DNA from: a virus | Length of the DNA stretch: 35,149 bases | Virus record (IMG/VR): IMGVR_UViG_3300050821_006305 | Coordinates: 1-35,149 of that record | Strand: one strand, 5' to 3' | Shown: piece by piece, positions 3,338 through 35,149 of the stretch | How positions within the stretch are numbered: the first letter of the stretch is position 1 | How the letters are laid out: each line of letters begins with the position of its first letter | Program-made: the position numbers and the translations under genes | Notes under the pieces: generated by a model | Database searches by the model: none | Told to the model about the DNA's origin: nothing | The model's input: only the letters and a program-made list of their open reading frames with translations

Positions 3338-3583
3338 CTAATTCCATTCATTATTATTTCTTTCATCGTATAAATGATCAAAATGATCTCTAATTAATTC
3401 ATCGGATGCTTGGTTTTGATTTCTTGCATTATCTCGTTTTTTTTGTATTAACATTTCTTGTTGATTTTCTAACATTTTTTTTTGTATTTCATAGTTTTGT
3501 CGCTGCATGTAAGAATCATAAACATTTTCTGAGTAAGAATTTATACTGCATAAGGATAACGCTATAAAAATTATCTTTTTCAT
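3338..3583 (-). CDS. Exported small coiled-coil protein
   Basis: An 81-residue protein. MKKIIFIALSLCSINSYS is a Sec signal peptide with cleavage likely after SYS. The mature part is a Q/K/E/R-rich helix (NYEIQKKMLENQQEMLIQKK) and an acidic tail. There is no proper lipobox, because the cysteine is preceded by L rather than G, A or S. A periplasmic coiled coil next to membrane coiled-coil proteins could be a spanin-like component, but no family match is visible. GGAG lies eight bases before the ATG. A hairpin (3601-3624) precedes the gene. Confidence 0.6.
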   Translation of the reverse strand: MKKIIFIALSLCSINSYSENVYDSYMQRQNYEIQKKMLENQQEMLIQKKRDNARNQNQASDELIRDHFDHLYDERNNNEWN

Positions 3584-3600
3584 TTTATTTACTCCACGTT

Positions 3601-3624
3601 AAAGGTATCGATTTCGCTACCTTT
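3601..3624. promoter_or_regulatory. Perfect hairpin between divergent operons
   Basis: AAAGGTA and TACCTTT form a 7-bp stem. On the plus strand it is followed by GATTTTTATTT, so it could terminate plus-strand transcription from the holin-like gene. On the minus strand it sits in the leader of the 3583 gene, just before its ribosome site. Confidence 0.45.
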
Positions 3625-7081: not shown

Positions 7082-9154
7082 ATGCCACGACTTTCAAGGC
7101 AGACGTGTCAAAATATCAGGGAAGACATCCGCAAATGGGATGATTACTGGCGTTTTAATATTGATCAGTATCATGAAGTAACCCAATTTGTAATGGGTGA
7201 TCAATGGCGGGAGGATGAAGCTCGTGTCTTTGAAACTTACAAGAAAATCCCACTCACTTTTAATAAACTTGCTCCTTTACTCAATCACCTTATTGGCGAA
7301 CAACGACAAAATACCCCAGCCTTACAGGTTAATCCCTCAGAAAACGTACCAGAACGAACGGCGGAAGTAAGAACTGCTCTTGTTAAAGACATATCGCTAA
7401 ATTCTGATGCAAAAATAGTCTATCAGAATGGATTTGAACAAGGTGCTATTGGTGGATTTGGTGCGTGGATCGTATTAAATGATTATGAAAACTCTAAGGA
7501 CTTTAATCAAGAGATAAGAATCAAATCGGTTAAAGATCCAACTCGTTGTTTCTGGGATATATCGGCAGAGGATATATGTAAAGTAGATGGAATGTATTCA
7601 GGCTATAGGACTCGTGTATCAAGGAAGAAATTTAAATCAATGTATGGACGCGATCTTGAGCGCCAAATTGGATCTGAAGGAAATGATGAGACCACACAGG
7701 GATTTTGGGATGATGATCAGATAACTGTAATTGATTATTTCTCCCGTAAATATGACAAGATAAAATTATCCCAGCTTAGTAATGGATTAGTGATTGAAGG
7801 TAAAGATATTGAACGATTAGAAAAAATAGAAATAGATGAGCAAGAACTATTATTGTGGGAAGGTGAACCTGTCACAATCCAACAAGAGAGAACAGCATAT
7901 CGTTATAAAGTAAAACATCAAAAGATTGCAGGGGATTTCATATTAGAAACTACAGATTTCCCAAGTCAATCACTTCCCGTCGTATTTGTCGATCAACATT
8001 CATTTTATGATAAACATGGTAAACAGATTTGTAGACCTCTAGTTAAAGATGCAAGAGATGCTCAGCGTTTAATTAATTTCTTAGGAACACAGGGTGCATA
8101 CTTAATTAAGATCTCTCGTAATGATCAATTCTTAGTATCAAAAGAAAATGTGAGATCGCCTGATACAAGACAGATTTGGACAGATCCCTCGGTTGTTCAA
8201 GGTGGATTAGTATTTGATGAATCACCATCAGGTATTAAACCCGAACAATTAAGACCGCCTGAGATATCTCAAAGTTTAATGCAAATGTATGAACGAGCAG
8301 AACGTGATATTCATACATGTTTAGGGATGTATGATACTCAATTAGGAGAGCAGGGTAATGAGATATCTGGGGCTGCGATTGATGCAAGAACTAAGCGTGG
8401 AAGCTATAACAATTTTGTTACTTTTGATGCACTCAATAGAGCAATAGCATGTACGGGTCAAATCATCGATGAGATGATTCCCAAAGTTTATGACACTGAA
8501 CGTCAAATGATGCTTTATATGCCTGATTCTGGATTACAAAAAGTTAATCTAAATTCCCCACAAGATGATTATGGTGTGCAGGTGGAAAACAATATGACGG
8601 AAGGTAATTATAAAATCCGTCTATTGCCAGGACCAAGTTATGAAGGTCAGAAGATGGAAGGACTTGAAGCTTTACAGATGGTATTAAAGAATGATCCATC
8701 CTTATTCAAACTTGTTGCCGATATGTATGCAGAAAACTTACCACTGGCAAATTCAATTGAGATTCGTAATCGCTTAAAGACAATTGTACCGCCTGAAATA
8801 ATTGAAGCCGGTAAGACGGGCAAACCTATACAACAACCACAACAACCATCACCTGAACAAATGCAAATGCAAATGGCTCAACAACAAATGATGATGCAAG
8901 CTAAACAAAAAGAAGCAGAATTAATGCTTAAACAAAAAGAATTAATGCGTAAAACTCAAGAGATGAATCAAAAATCTGTTGCTGATATGCAAAGATTAGA
9001 AACAGAAAGATTAGAGGCTGCTGCTACTTTGCAAGAACAAGAGATGAGATATCAAGCAGAGATGAATAAAACATCAGCTGATTTAAATATAGCTCATGCA
9101 AATAATTTGATTAAGTTATTAACGCATCATCCTAAACAACCAAAATCAACATAA
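7082..9154 (+). CDS. Portal protein (P22 type)
   Basis: A 690-residue protein; P22 gp1 has 725. The N-terminal part carries WDDYWRFNIDQYHEVTQFVM and PLTFNKLAPLLNHLIGEQRQ (residues about 57-76), the signature of P22-type portals. The centre is the wing/stem region. From about residue 590 the chain becomes Q, M and K rich and helical (QMQMQMAQQQMMMQAKQK), like the C-terminal barrel of P22 portal that projects into the head. The dodecamer is the DNA channel, the docking site for terminase and the base for gp4-like adaptors. Scaffold follows directly. Confidence 0.93.
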   Translation: MPRLSRQTCQNIREDIRKWDDYWRFNIDQYHEVTQFVMGDQWREDEARVFETYKKIPLTFNKLAPLLNHLIGEQRQNTPALQVNPSENVPERTAEVRTALVKDISLNSDAKIVYQNGFEQGAIGGFGAWIVLNDYENSKDFNQEIRIKSVKDPTRCFWDISAEDICKVDGMYSGYRTRVSRKKFKSMYGRDLERQIGSEGNDETTQGFWDDDQITVIDYFSRKYDKIKLSQLSNGLVIEGKDIERLEKIEIDEQELLLWEGEPVTIQQERTAYRYKVKHQKIAGDFILETTDFPSQSLPVVFVDQHSFYDKHGKQICRPLVKDARDAQRLINFLGTQGAYLIKISRNDQFLVSKENVRSPDTRQIWTDPSVVQGGLVFDESPSGIKPEQLRPPEISQSLMQMYERAERDIHTCLGMYDTQLGEQGNEISGAAIDARTKRGSYNNFVTFDALNRAIACTGQIIDEMIPKVYDTERQMMLYMPDSGLQKVNLNSPQDDYGVQVENNMTEGNYKIRLLPGPSYEGQKMEGLEALQMVLKNDPSLFKLVADMYAENLPLANSIEIRNRLKTIVPPEIIEAGKTGKPIQQPQQPSPEQMQMQMAQQQMMMQAKQKEAELMLKQKELMRKTQEMNQKSVADMQRLETERLEAAATLQEQEMRYQAEMNKTSADLNIAHANNLIKLLTHHPKQPKST

Positions 9155-10024: not shown

Positions 10025-10840
10025 ATGTCTACTCAAGATAATTGCGTTTGCTGTCAAGGTCCAGTCGGTCCTCAAGGTATTCCAGGTGTTCAAGGTCCAC
10101 AAGGAAACCAAGGACCTGCAGGTTCTCAAGGAATTCCAGGTCCAAGAGGTTTGACGGGTTCTCAAGGCGCAACGGGTCCCGCTGGTTTACAAGGCCCACA
10201 AGGTATGCCGGGAAATGATGGATCTCAGGGTGTACCTGGAGTTGATGGAATGAACGGAACTGATGGCGCACAAGGTCCAATTGGTCCAATGGGACCACAA
10301 GGTTTACAAGGTCCTCAAGGACCGAAGGGCGATTGTGTTGCTTGTCCCTGCGATTGTGGAGCGCCAGAATTTGCCGAAGTTTACTCGGTTACGACGCAGA
10401 ATTTAGCAGCATCTCCTGGTCCAAATTTAGCGGGTCAAGTTTGTATATTAGAAAACACCATTTTCTCAACCTCAAATATTGATGTTTCCCAGGCAGCTGT
10501 TAATGGAAAGATTATTATTAATAAAGCTGGCTGGTATGATGTAGCGACGGGAATATCAGGTGCGTTAAATCCTATTCCATCCCCCATTCCTGTGTGGACA
10601 TTATCTTTGTTCAAAAATGGTTTAATTATTCCAGGTTCAACTTTTGCAAATCAAACCATATCTCCTGAACAAAAATCTAATGAAATCGTTGCAGATGTTT
10701 TTGTTCATTTTAATATCGGAGATGTTCTTGAATTAGCCAATACAAGTATAAATCAGGTATTTATGAGTGCACCTACATTTGGAACCAATGCTCAAACAAA
10801 TAGTGCATATCTTAAAATTCAATTATTGAAAGCTGATTAG
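10025..10840 (+). CDS. Collagen-like trimeric protein with C-terminal jelly-roll domain
   Basis: A 271-residue protein. A cysteine cluster (CVCC at residues 7-10) precedes 30 uninterrupted Gly-X-Y triplets (residues 12-101), with many GPQ and GIP triplets. A second cysteine cluster ([11 protein letters not shown]) follows. The last 160 residues are beta-rich, with [19 protein letters not shown] and a C-terminal SAYLKIQLL strand, like C1q/BclA-type trimerising heads. The cysteine clusters could lock the triple helix at both ends. Likely a virion surface fibre or decoration, by position after scaffold. AAGGA sits seven bases before the ATG. Confidence 0.85.
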
Positions 10841-11057: not shown

Positions 11058-11270
11058 ATGTCAGACAAGGAAGTTTTGCAGATAGGAAATATTATTGAAT
11101 ATCCTCGTAAATCTAATTCACCTAATCAACCAGAGTATGAATCTGATGTTTATAATATTCCTGAGGTTGAAGCACAGAATAAACGTCATATGGGATATAA
11201 TGGTAAACCTGGAAAAATTATTGCGACTACTATTAACTTTTCTGCACGTAAAAATAATAGGAAGGAATAA
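11058..11270 (+). CDS. 70-residue protein of unknown function
   Basis: A small basic protein (MSDKEVLQIGNIIEYPRKSN ... RHMGYNGKPGKIIATTINF). AAGGA precedes the ATG at nine bases. It ends two bases before the next gene at 11273. There is no membrane segment or metal motif. Function unknown; it is part of the small-protein run between the collagen-like gene and the accessory island. Confidence 0.65.
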   Translation: MSDKEVLQIGNIIEYPRKSNSPNQPEYESDVYNIPEVEAQNKRHMGYNGKPGKIIATTINFSARKNNRKE

Positions 11271-16432: not shown

Positions 16433-16666
16433 TTATTCTTCAACTTTTTTAACTATGTAACGTATTTTATTTCTTCTGCGATATTCAGCATTATTATCAT
16501 TATCAGACTTTAATAATTTAAGACCTTCTTCAGTTATAGTTAATACTTCTTGATATAATTTATCATCATCAGAAATTAAACCATCATTTTTCATTGATTT
16601 TATTTTATATAATAAGTCCTCATGAGATTTTATGAGTTTATTTTTTATTTCACTATCTAATTCCAT
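16433..16666 (-). CDS. Small helical protein of unknown function
   Basis: A 77-residue charged helical protein (LDSEIKNKLIKSHEDLLYKI, EYRRRNKIRYIVKKVEE). The ATG at 16666 lies ten bases inside the end of the zinc-module gene, with GGGA upstream, so it is co-translated. The basic C-terminal end could bind nucleic acid. No family recognised. Confidence 0.6.
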   Translation of the reverse strand: MELDSEIKNKLIKSHEDLLYKIKSMKNDGLISDDDKLYQEVLTITEEGLKLLKSDNDNNAEYRRRNKIRYIVKKVEE

Positions 16667-16926
16667 ATTATTCCCGTCCCTTTACATGAAACACATTCGA
16701 AATTAATATCTCCACCATCCTGAAAATTAGGTTTAATCCTTTTTCCTATTCCGTCACAGGAAGGACATTTAAACGGGTCTTTTCTTAATGATGTAGCACA
16801 TAAATTATTATATGATTTTTTTAATACATTAATTAAAATATCTAATTCATCAATTCTTGTTGATATCTTCCGGTTCTCATCTATTTGTCTAACATGATAT
16901 TCGTAACATTTACATTTGTCTGACAT
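16657..16926 (-). CDS. Coiled-coil protein with one CxxCxGxG zinc module
   Basis: An 89-residue protein: a CKC start (residues 5-7), a coiled coil (about 14-45) and a C-terminal zinc module (CPSCDGIGKR ... CVSCKGTGIIWN). The module matches the two in the 5731-6669 protein, including the GIVW/GIIW ending. It looks like a half-size relative placed on the opposite strand more than 10 kb away. The role is unknown. AAAGGA is six bases before the ATG, which follows the upstream stop directly. Confidence 0.75.
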   Translation of the reverse strand: MSDKCKCYEYHVRQIDENRKISTRIDELDILINVLKKSYNNLCATSLRKDPFKCPSCDGIGKRIKPNFQDGGDINFECVSCKGTGIIWN

Positions 16927-32308: not shown

Positions 32309-33466
32309 TTATTTCATTATGATATAACCCAAAGTAGAAGCACCTGGATCACCTGAACTTAATACAACAAAGCTTCCGTTACCTGGGGTTACTTTTTCAA
32401 TACTCACAGGATTTGCTGATGTGTTCCAATTAGCAACGACTGTGCTTGTGGTCGTACAGAAAGCATCTGTTACTGTTTGACTAGCAGAACCACCTGCAAC
32501 TGCTGCAGCTGTAACAGATTTCATTTTACCTTGCGTTGGATTGGTAACAACAAAACCAGTTGATGCACCTACATCAGGGATAGTAAGAACACTACTTTGA
32601 GCAAGAGCGCCATTTGATAAAGTTAAATTGAAAGCACCACCTGCATTAGCTGCGGCTAGAATTAATGTTCCATTAGCAGCGCTTGCTGGGAATATAGTCA
32701 AGGATGATGCATGACCTGACGATCCTAGGGTCAATGTACCTAATGTCATTGCCACATTACCTGTAGAGATCGTTTGAGTACCTGCAGAATCTGTTAGTAA
32801 AAATTTAGAGGTAGCAACACCAGGATCTGGAGTGCTTATAACTGATGATTGACCCATTACAGAATTACTAATGGTTGTATTAAAAGGACCGCCTGCATTG
32901 ATAGCAGCAACTATTAGACTACCGTTTGCAGCGGTTGCAGGAAATGAGGCCAAAGTACCTGCGGTTCCTGATAATCCAGCTTGAATATTACCGCCATTTA
33001 TTGCGGTGGCTGCATCATCATCTATAGTTCCTAAGGTGTCAGTAAAAACAGCAATATGATTAACTGTTACTGCCGACCCTGCCATCACAACTTTTGTTTT
33101 GGTAGGATCAGATGGTGAATATCCAGCATCAAAAAGTTGTCCGGCTGTTCCACTAAATACCGTAAAATCCCCTGATACTACGGGTAATGTTACGCCTCCT
33201 GCACCTGCTGTTGAATAAAGGATTAAGCTATGAGTAGTTGAATTTACGGTATATAAAACATCGGTATTATCGGCATCAGAATAGACTAATACCATATCAC
33301 CTGGTTGCCATACCCATAAGCCGTTGTTTGCAAGTTCTATACTTGCGATGGTTGCTGCAAGATTTAGCCAACCAGTTGCTGAGATGGTTGCTTGTGAGTC
33401 TGTCACTTCCATGTTCACGATTTGCGGCGTATTGTTAAAATTACGCTGAATAGATGTTACTGTCAT
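32309..33466 (-). CDS. Virion decoration/fibre-like protein with internal repeats
   Basis: A 385-residue protein of Ala, Gly, Ser, Thr and Val-rich strands. It has two clear repeats: GTLASFPATAANGSLIVAAI with NAGGPFNTTISN and SSVISTPDPG (about 175-225), and SLTIFPASAANGTLILAAA with NAGGAFNLTLSN and SSVLTIPDVG (about 255-305). The repeat type is common in phage decoration and fibre proteins. AAGGAG precedes the ATG. It is read against the other virion genes and has its own promoter region, so it may be an added surface module. Confidence 0.75.
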   Translation of the reverse strand: MTVTSIQRNFNNTPQIVNMEVTDSQATISATGWLNLAATIASIELANNGLWVWQPGDMVLVYSDADNTDVLYTVNSTTHSLILYSTAGAGGVTLPVVSGDFTVFSGTAGQLFDAGYSPSDPTKTKVVMAGSAVTVNHIAVFTDTLGTIDDDAATAINGGNIQAGLSGTAGTLASFPATAANGSLIVAAINAGGPFNTTISNSVMGQSSVISTPDPGVATSKFLLTDSAGTQTISTGNVAMTLGTLTLGSSGHASSLTIFPASAANGTLILAAANAGGAFNLTLSNGALAQSSVLTIPDVGASTGFVVTNPTQGKMKSVTAAAVAGGSASQTVTDAFCTTTSTVVANWNTSANPVSIEKVTPGNGSFVVLSSGDPGASTLGYIIMK

Positions 33467-33507
33467 GCCGATCTCCTTATCGATAAGTTTTCTTCCTAGG
33501 TGACGAT

Positions 33508-33513
33508 ATTATA
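33508..33513 (-). promoter_or_regulatory. -10 element for the decoration-gene transcript
   Basis: The minus strand reads TATAAT here, 42 bases before the ATG at 33466. No good TTGACA-like element is found 16-18 bases upstream, so the promoter is only partly supported. Confidence 0.3.
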
Positions 33514-33727
33514 CGACAAAATTAATACAAATTAACTAATTTCATTTATTCAAGATTTTCTTATGATTGCACATATTAATAATAAGTTTATATCTTTTTT
33601 GTTATAATTATAGTGCGTAATTTTATGTATAAATAATATTTATTCAATATAACTAATATCTTAAGTAAATAACTTTCTGTATATATTTTGGTGATAGTCT
33701 TGTATAGAAAAAATTAAAAAAAATTTA

Positions 33728-33767
33728 TTAACAGTTTGTTAATTGATATTAACAGGGATATTAACAG
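33728..33767 (+). repeat. Three TTAACAG direct repeats (iteron-like)
   Basis: Exact copies of TTAACAG start at 33728, 33749 and 33761, spaced 21 and 12 bases apart, or about two and one helical turns. They lie between an A/T-only stretch and the DnaA box. They may be binding sites for the initiator encoded at 1229. Confidence 0.6.
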
Positions 33768-33771
33768 AAAT

Positions 33772-33780
33772 TGTGGATAA
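33772..33780 (-). promoter_or_regulatory. Perfect DnaA box
   Basis: TGTGGATAA is the exact reverse complement of the consensus DnaA box TTATCCACA. It sits five bases after the last TTAACAG repeat. A nine-base match is expected by chance now and then, but its place in this array raises confidence. Confidence 0.65.
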
Positions 33781-33787
33781 AATTGGT

Positions 33788-33870
33788 GGCAATAGTCCAG
33801 ATTGTCTGGACGGATCAAAGGTTAAGGAATAGTAAACCTTTCTACACGCGTATAGTAGAACGCTATTGCC
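33788..33870. other. Cloverleaf-forming element (outer stem closing three hairpins)
   Basis: GGCAATA (33788-33794) pairs with TATTGCC (33864-33870), closing the element. Inside are GTCCAGA/TCTGGAC (33795-33811, 3-base loop), AAAGGTT/AACCTTT (33817-33841, 11-base loop) and CTAC/GTAG (33842-33858, containing ACGCGT). All stems are perfect. A tRNA is excluded, because there is no T-loop sequence and the first arm has a 3-base loop. It may be an origin cruciform, a structured RNA or a recombination site. Confidence 0.7.
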
Positions 33871-33888
33871 AAGATATTTTTATATCTT
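33871..33888. terminator. Weak hairpin at the end of the recombination operon
   Basis: AAGATAT and ATATCTT form a 7-bp AT-only stem with a TTTT loop, overlapping the stop codon of the Gp157-like gene. Stability is low and no T tract follows on the minus strand, so it is at best a weak terminator. Confidence 0.3.
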
Positions 33889-34422
33889 TGAAACTAATAT
33901 TTCAAGCTTATCTTTTTGTGAGACATAAGCCCCTGGTATTTGATTACCTGTCCTCAATACTTCTTCCTTTATTTTATTTTTATCAGGTTTTACTTCAACT
34001 TTTACGATCTCTTTAAAACTCAGAAACTCATGTGGTATTAATTCATCGTTAATAATATCGGTTGAGTAGGGATTTTTCTTAATCCTAATTGTAAAGTATG
34101 GACATTTAATTTCTCTTATTCCTTGTTTTTTCATATTGAATTCAAGATAATTTTGATACTTTTTAACTTCCTTATCATAAGATCTTTTTCTTTGTTCTAT
34201 TTCATTGGTTAAATAATCCAATTCTCTTTTTTCAGATTCCAATTTTTTAATCCATTGTGTAATCGATATACATTTCTTTTCAATTGTTGGATCAAGCTCA
34301 TCAAGTTTCGCTTGGATGATTTCATTAACTTCTCCAGTCTCATGATCATACAATTCATTTAATAATTTTTGATGTTCATTTGTTAGCTGCCATAGAGATA
34401 AATCTTTTGATTGAGTAATCAT
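33880..34422 (-). CDS. Siphovirus Gp157-like protein
   Basis: A 180-residue protein. Residues 30-100 form a charged coiled coil. The C-terminal part has MKKQGIREIKCPYFTIRIKK, then NPYSTDIINDELIPHEFL and DKNKIKEEVLRTGNQIPGAY, the signature of the Gp157 family. Members occur beside phage annealing or ssDNA-binding proteins and are thought to help DNA recombination or resistance; the biochemical role is not settled. It starts in an ATGA overlap with the annealing-protein gene (34419-34422). Confidence 0.85.
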   Translation of the reverse strand: MITQSKDLSLWQLTNEHQKLLNELYDHETGEVNEIIQAKLDELDPTIEKKCISITQWIKKLESEKRELDYLTNEIEQRKRSYDKEVKKYQNYLEFNMKKQGIREIKCPYFTIRIKKNPYSTDIINDELIPHEFLSFKEIVKVEVKPDKNKIKEEVLRTGNQIPGAYVSQKDKLEILVSKI

Positions 34423-35149
34423 GATTTCACCTCACCGGTTTCAACGTTCACTGAATCTAATTCATCTTGAAATTGTTTAACTTCTAATTCATTTTTTCTT
34501 TTGTCTTTCGCATCAATTACACCTTTTAATCTAGATGAATCTCTTTTTTCTGCCCAAAACTTATATTCCTTTCTAAAATATAATTCTAATTCTTCTAAAT
34601 TTTCAGATTTCATAATTACATCAATGCCAGATTTAAAATCCATCTCATCTATTCCGTCATCGTTTAATATTTTTTTATCTTGAATATTTGAATGAATATC
34701 TATTTTTTTAGCTCCGTTCATAGTTTCAATTTCTGATTCATCGGTAAATCCTAATCCACAAATTGAAAGTGTTGCACGTCTTTTTGCCTTAGTTTCTGCT
34801 TTCATCATCGCATTACAAAGTGCATCTCCCTTAAGTCCAGATATGGTAATTGCACCTATTGATGAATCTTCTCTACCATCTTGAGTTTTAGCATCAACGA
34901 TCACAATATAAATTCCCTCGGTTACTTTGGTATCGCGAATTTTAATGGATATATGATTATTTTTTCTCAATTGCTCCGTTGCATCTTTGGTGAAATATGC
35001 AATTTCTTTTCCTTGAAATTTAATCAATTGAATTGGTTTGGTTAGTGGATTTAACCCTAAACTTTCACACACATTTTTAATATGTTGCACTTTTTCAAGA
35101 GGCGATAATCCTCCTAGATCATTATTCGTTATAACCTTTTCAAGCAATG
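34419..35149 (-). CDS. Single-strand annealing protein (RecT/Erf-like), C-terminal part; continues at 137
   Basis: This is the 3' part of the gene whose start is at 137 once the circle is closed; the full product has 256 residues. In full-length numbering, GLNPLTKPIQLIKFQGKEIA (45-64) is followed by FTKDATEQLRK, GREDSSIGAITISGLKGDAL and MMKAETKAKRRATLSICGLG (128-147). This pattern belongs to phage recombination proteins grouped with RecT/Erf, which anneal complementary single strands. The C-terminal 90 residues are a charged, probably flexible tail. The pairing with a Gp157-like gene supports the call. The exact family is uncertain. Confidence 0.65.
   Translation of the reverse strand, partial: LLEKVITNNDLGGLSPLEKVQHIKNVCESLGLNPLTKPIQLIKFQGKEIAYFTKDATEQLRKNNHISIKIRDTKVTEGIYIVIVDAKTQDGREDSSIGAITISGLKGDALCNAMMKAETKAKRRATLSICGLGFTDESEIETMNGAKKIDIHSNIQDKKILNDDGIDEMDFKSGIDVIMKSENLEELELYFRKEYKFWAEKRDSSRLKGVIDAKDKRKNELEVKQFQDELDSVNVETGEVKS
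35053..35149. repeat. Terminal direct repeat, right copy
   Basis: Identical to bases 1-97. Trimming either copy gives the 35,052-bp circle and restores the annealing-protein gene. Confidence 0.95.

Follow-up and report, generated by a model that had tools for sequence, protein, structure and literature searches.

Bacterial RNase P measures the 12-bp stack of the acceptor and T stems of its substrates and pairs with their RCCA sequence, and a U at position -1 and the G1:C72 pair act near the site of the cut (PMC11143913). The substrates listed for the enzyme include the phage M3 RNA, the precursor of the C4 antisense RNA of P1/P7 and the T4 gene 32 mRNA (PMC11143913). The tRNA-like 3' ends of plant viruses are RNase P substrates as well (PMC12710915, PMC11143913), and a non-tRNA pseudoknot was turned into one by the addition of RCCA (PMC12710915).

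The element described here, a cloverleaf located behind a gam gene in a phage contig, resembles M3 RNA, the C4 precursor and T4 gene 32 mRNA in being phage-encoded and non-decoding and in containing a helix with the features that RNase P reads (PMC11143913). Unlike these RNAs, it lies behind gam, takes the form of a full cloverleaf and has an encoded CCA; it is known from its sequence and, for M3 and C4, the comparison is one of descriptions. C4 is an antisense RNA, whereas the element has no antisense complementarity beyond chance: its longest exact match to any other part of the phage has 11 nt, and shuffled elements give 9–16 nt, most often 11. An antisense role was accordingly rejected, and the counter-transcript regulator suggested in an earlier note on this DNA is unsupported. 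With the tRNA-like termini of turnip yellow mosaic virus and similar plant RNA viruses, the element would share the character of a tRNA mimic that ends in CCA at the 3' end of an RNA (PMC12710915, PMC11143913); the acceptor stems of those viruses, however, are pseudoknots, whereas the element is an ordinary cloverleaf in the interior of a double-stranded DNA phage genome. The best-supported reading, as yet unproven, is that the recT-gam message ends in the element as a 3' tRNA mimic, which would make it a variant of kinds already known, the RNase P substrates of phages and the tRNA-like RNAs.

A perfect cloverleaf behind gam

The window (the whole stretch of 35,149 nucleotides that was analysed) is a podovirus-like contig of 35 kb, with genes for the small and large terminase, portal, major head protein, head closure, DNA ejection and tail fibre; the relatives of the portal protein, at 27–29% identity, belong to Vibrio, Shewanella and enterobacterial phages. 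Downstream of the portal gene, a collagen-repeat tail protein is encoded at 10025–10840 (PF01391, E 1e-15), and a small cysteine-rich protein at 16657–16926 shows a weak match, below curated cut-offs, to the DnaJ zinc-binding domain and anti-TRAP. The minus strand carries a recT-like gene (34419–35147), which is cut or nearly cut at the window end, and, overlapping it by 4 nt, a gam/Gp157-like (Mu-Gam-like) gene (33880–34422; PF05565, PHROG 253). The recT-like gene has no Pfam match and its name is inferred from the linkage to gam, which is also seen for its homologues in other phages (L013–L018). The gam stop codon is followed, after 9 nt, by the element, so that the recT-like gene, gam and the element all share the minus strand as coding strand. 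The next gene in the same direction (32309–33466, minus strand; 385 aa), which has no family match and whose product looks structural in type, starts 322 nt beyond the element. The position of the element is the junction of early and probably late minus-strand genes, in a gap of 413 nt that is the longest in the ORF map of the window and has a GC content of 25%, compared with 43% for the element.

The earlier note had described four perfect stems within the 83 nt from 33788 to 33870, and this description is borne out: the stems, of 7, 7, 7 and 4 bp, contain zero mismatches and zero G-T pairs, every pair being Watson-Crick, and the outer stem reaches 8 bp once T33787–A33871 is counted. On the plus strand, the inner stems occupy 33795–33811 (7 bp, 3-nt loop), 33817–33841 (7 bp, 11-nt loop) and 33848–33863 (4 bp, 8-nt loop). 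Both strands were folded against shuffled controls, the check that the same note had proposed, and none of 200 shuffles was as good on either strand. The RNA folding energy is -25.6 kcal/mol for the plus strand (z -3.6) and -27.0 kcal/mol for the minus strand (z -4.8, or -5.1 with flanks); with DNA parameters, the z values are -4.1 and -5.5, respectively. Some other stretches of the window have an equal or lower raw folding energy, and the element therefore stands out by its architecture and not by its energy. When the sequences were searched strictly for three perfect stems of 7, 7 and 4 bp inside a perfect 7-bp stem, all within 90 nt, the window gave a single hit, whereas 160 dinucleotide-shuffled windows gave none and neither did the other loci, approximately 647 kb in all, in agreement with the previous estimate that such an arrangement is very unlikely by chance. 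The element is real and non-random.

Likeness to tRNA on the minus strand

Read on the minus strand, the stems, the fold and a descriptor match define a tRNA-like element of 87 nt (33784–33870), in which the cloverleaf is followed by an encoded ACCA. The 5' strand of the acceptor stem, GGCAATA (33864–33870), begins with G+1 at 33870 and is preceded by U-1 at 33871. A D-like arm of 4 bp with an 8-nt loop (33848–33863) is placed directly on the acceptor, without positions 8-9; its alternative pairing, TTCTAC with GTAGAA, has a probability below 0.1. An anticodon-like arm of 7 bp with the 11-nt loop TACTATTCCTT (33817–33841), a variable region of 5 nt, GATCC (33812–33816), and a 17-nt T-arm, GTCCA-GACAATC-TGGAC (33795–33811), which pairs as 7 bp with a 3-nt loop, lead to the 3' strand of the acceptor, TATTGCC (33788–33794), and to A73-C74-C75-A76 (33784–33787). 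The latter is an instance of RCCA, which is found at 0.0065–0.007 of positions (0.0065 per strand). The T-arm abuts the 3' acceptor strand gaplessly, and A-CCA comes next; the plus strand has none of these features. TATTGCC-ACCA, as the 3' end of a minus-strand acceptor, had been overlooked in the earlier note. Predicted pair probabilities are high for the element alone as well as inside the gam transcript, in which the acceptor, T and anticodon-like stems have values of 0.76–1.0.

A descriptor that was derived from tRNA, without being fitted to the element, and that consists of a 7-bp acceptor, a gapless 17-nt T-arm with 5 bp and RCCA has one match in the window and 24 matches in 3741 shuffles of the window, that is, about 0.006 per genome, a figure that leaves aside the two further perfect arms. 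There were zero matches in 619 kb of other loci. Since the descriptor was chosen after the element had been seen and the window was picked by a scan, the rate is a guide and not a formal p-value.

The likeness to canonical class I tRNA (RF00005) extends to the acceptor, with its 7 bp (GGCAATA/TATTGCC), position 73 and CCA (ACCA at 33784–33787), to the gapless 17-nt T-arm and to the 5-nt variable region. In contrast to canonical tRNA, the anticodon-like stem has 7 bp and an 11-nt loop instead of 5 bp and 7 nt, the D-like loop TCTACTAT lacks G18-G19, and the linker positions 8-9 are missing. The T-arm is canonical in its length and gapless placement but not in its loop, which reads GACAATC instead of TTCRANY, without T54-T55, and which is narrowed to 3 nt by the extra pairing. 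The RF00005 covariance model leaves the element unmatched even at E<=10, ARAGORN in bacterial mode gives no call for it, and Rfam yields zero matches at gathering score, the matches at E<=10 being at chance level. Only the permissive mitochondrial mode of ARAGORN calls exactly 33784–33870, among nine calls in the window, which is weak evidence; with lowered thresholds the program calls everywhere and is uninformative. By these comparisons the element is not a functional, decoding tRNA. The label "not a tRNA" in the earlier note holds in this respect, with both ARAGORN in bacterial mode and RF00005 silent, but it does not do justice to the minus strand, which has tRNA geometry and an encoded CCA.

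The gam loci of other phages

No homologue of the element was found by exact seed and gapped pattern in IMG/VR viral contigs or by blastn among phage and plasmid records, and a scan of genome contigs gave a single weak, unusable locus. A 32-nt match in a Providencia plasmid (E 0.4) was rejected, there being no rep family or iterons, and a match in a Staphylococcus phage (E 0.3) was taken as chance. The nearest gam-bearing relative, G012 (IMGVR_UViG_3300050821_005588), has identities to the window of about 46% for rep, about 51% for the recT-like protein and 27% for Gam over full length. Right behind its gam stop codon lies a structure that differs from the element but is equally significant (z -6.2). 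It consists of a 7-bp hairpin within a long stem, also has U-1 and G1:C72, and ends on the 3' side in AUC-ACCA-AU, compared with GCC-ACCA-AU in the window. Given how seldom RCCA occurs, its presence at both helix ends is suggestive, short of proof.

In the loci L061, L070 and L063, the gap behind gam is also at least 90 nt; the first two contain a strong fold and the third a classical terminator, in each case without ACCA at the helix end. Among the inspected gam loci with an adjacent next gene, neither a strong fold nor a terminator was seen. Every gap of 90 nt or more thus contains a fold or a terminator, which makes structure at the gam 3' end common among the loci inspected; of these loci, this window alone shows the tRNA form. 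L061 has, directly behind gam (3498–3611), a very long near-perfect inverted repeat of over 30 bp, the arms of which hold AAAGGAGGTG / CACCTCCTTT, that is, Shine-Dalgarno / anti-Shine-Dalgarno sequence.

Several tRNA-like sequences were encountered in these phages. A stretch of G012 (L015:5989–6070, TGGCC...GGCCACCA) was rejected as a homologue of the element, its fold being no better than shuffled; this tRNA-like remnant has a T-arm of canonical appearance, GGGTTCGATTCCC, within a 16-nt imperfect inverted repeat, and is flanked by 13-nt direct repeats, AGGCCACCATTTA. The tRNAs in L009 and L016 are in distant phages and are unlinked to the element. L016, from another phage in which a recT-like gene is present, contains at 7293–7384 an odd 92-nt tRNA-like gene with the acceptor GGACCGG/CCGGTCC and the T-loop TTCGAGT and without a clear anticodon.

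Candidate functions

The features that RNase P reads can be located in the element: the approximately 12 stacked acceptor/T pairs are provided by 7 + 5 (up to 7) pairs, and the end of the helix has G33870:C33788, U at 33871 and ACCA at 33787–33784. On account of the fold excess, the tRNA geometry, the ACCA and the position right behind gam on the same strand, our best reading, with a probability of roughly 0.4, is that the recT-gam early mRNA has the element, folded as a tRNA mimic, for its 3' end. A role as a sense-strand RNA structure of some kind is probable, and a part for RNase P in its function is a tentative proposal that falls somewhat short of even odds. Among the functions offered in the earlier note, a non-coding RNA fits best on the sequence evidence. 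The element would be co-transcribed with gam, and host RNase P would read the 12-bp acceptor/T stack and the RCCA and cleave between 33871 and 33870. Such cleavage would set and protect the 3' end of the gam mRNA and split off the early message from the minus-strand genes that follow, possibly with the release of an RNA of 83–87 nt; decoding by the element would not be expected. The predicted cleavage could be weakened by pairing of U-1 with A73 (probability 0.73), and the T- and D-loops are without the bases that fold the tRNA elbow, which RNase P contacts too; the lack of ACCA at the helix end in L061, L070 and L063 also counts against this reading. If the tRNA-mimic reading is true, a double-stranded DNA phage uses a built-in tRNA mimic so that host RNase P finishes the message of its early recombination genes, somewhat in parallel to the tRNA-like 3' ends of plant RNA viruses, and RNAs of this kind in phage genomes escape the standard tRNA finders; the descriptor (acceptor, gapless T-arm, RCCA) offers a simple means to seek more of them.

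The gam loci are also compatible with a plainer role in the recT-gam operon, that of a structured 3' UTR or termination element, which would block 3' decay or end transcription with Rho or another factor, the likeness to tRNA being coincidental. Such an element would account for the strong fold (window, G012, L061, L070) or terminator (L063) in the longer gaps and for the lack of such a fold where the next gene is adjacent, and it would be well placed at the boundary between the early and the probably late minus-strand genes. However, an intrinsic terminator (GC-rich hairpin with a U-tract) was not found in 33400–34450, which contains neither a U-tract nor any terminator-like site, and the gapless 17-nt T-arm and the ACCA are left unexplained; we consider this account somewhat unlikely. 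Slightly less probable, and unlikely in our view, is the lack of any present function, the element being either a tRNA gene that the phage acquired and that has since decayed or a rare product of chance that emerged from the scanning of many windows. The failure to find a homologue in the collections searched (viral contigs, phages, plasmids) and the missing tRNA consensus bases are in line with this, and the G012 remnant with GGGTTCGATTCCC indicates that such debris occurs in these phages. Yet a decaying tRNA should lose pairs, and every stem is perfect; the fold occurs in 0 of 160 shuffles and the geometry is rare. A remnant of attP is unlikely as well, since a tyrosine integrase (PF00589) was not detected in the window and six relatives and was found in all controls, a result on which an attachment site was rejected. 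An operator was likewise dismissed, the 7-3-7 palindrome having no second copy in a search that allowed 3 mismatches and the other stems showing no clear excess, and for the resolution site of the earlier note there is no positive evidence.

A role at the DNA level, as part of a replication origin or as a single-strand initiation site whose cloverleaf is extruded as the AT-rich flank opens, is suggested by the surroundings of the element. The flank includes the 300-nt segment with the highest AT content in the window (33481–33780, 80.3%). It also contains three ATTAACAG direct repeats on the plus strand (33727–33767) and a consensus DnaA box, TTATCCACA, on the minus strand (33772–33780), 3 nt from the ACCA. 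No other 8-mer of the window forms a triplet within 60 nt, and 4 of 3000 shuffles attain the level of these repeats. Both strands fold under DNA parameters, and the exclusively Watson-Crick pairing suits DNA, so that RNA is not favoured over a DNA function on this count. Against an origin at the element, two or more TTATCCACA boxes occur in 10 of 100 shuffles, GC skew tracks gene direction with no switch specific to the site, and the corresponding gap in G012 has neither a ATTAACAG-like cluster nor a consensus box. Equally, the flank may carry regulator sites that serve the genes downstream.

A further argument against an origin at the element comes from the rep gene (1229–2044), which holds DnaA-box-like and CCAC inverted repeats and an A-rich stretch at 1553–1665. 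Within it, 1553–1616 carries TTATCCACA, TCATCCACA and CCAC-type inverted repeats, followed by the A-rich stretch; the repeats are, in order, TTATCCACA, TCATCCACA, CCACAGGTGTG, CCACCCAGTGG and CCACACGTGTGG. The DNA is conserved in the G012 counterpart (L024, about 11138–11195), in which most synonymous positions are kept despite a protein identity of 46%. We take this arrangement to be that of a lambda-type origin, with the origin inside the initiator gene, and regard 1553–1665 as an origin-like candidate of that type, and as a better candidate than the surroundings of the element. The likeness consists of repeats and an A/T-rich stretch, and a DnaA-box-like motif is present near the element as well; the arrangement, however, sits in rep and not at the element. 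The origin cruciform considered in the earlier note is therefore possible but weakened, as the origin-like sequence inside rep is conserved in G012 and the flank of the element is not so conserved, and we judge an origin function quite unlikely.

The least probable of the functions considered, and a highly improbable one, is a stable small RNA, a tRNA mimic that would be cut from the recT-gam message by host RNase P and whose loop would pair with phage messages, or which would serve as a decoy for host tRNA enzymes. The enlarged loop UACUAUUCCUU contains UUCCUU, which is complementary to AAGGAA ribosome-binding sites. The complement of the 11-nt loop (33824–33834) is AAGGAATAGTA. When up to 2 mismatches are allowed, the window contains 36 copies of it, where 19.6 would be expected; several of these copies sit just upstream of start codons, and the excess probably reflects no more than ribosome-binding sites.
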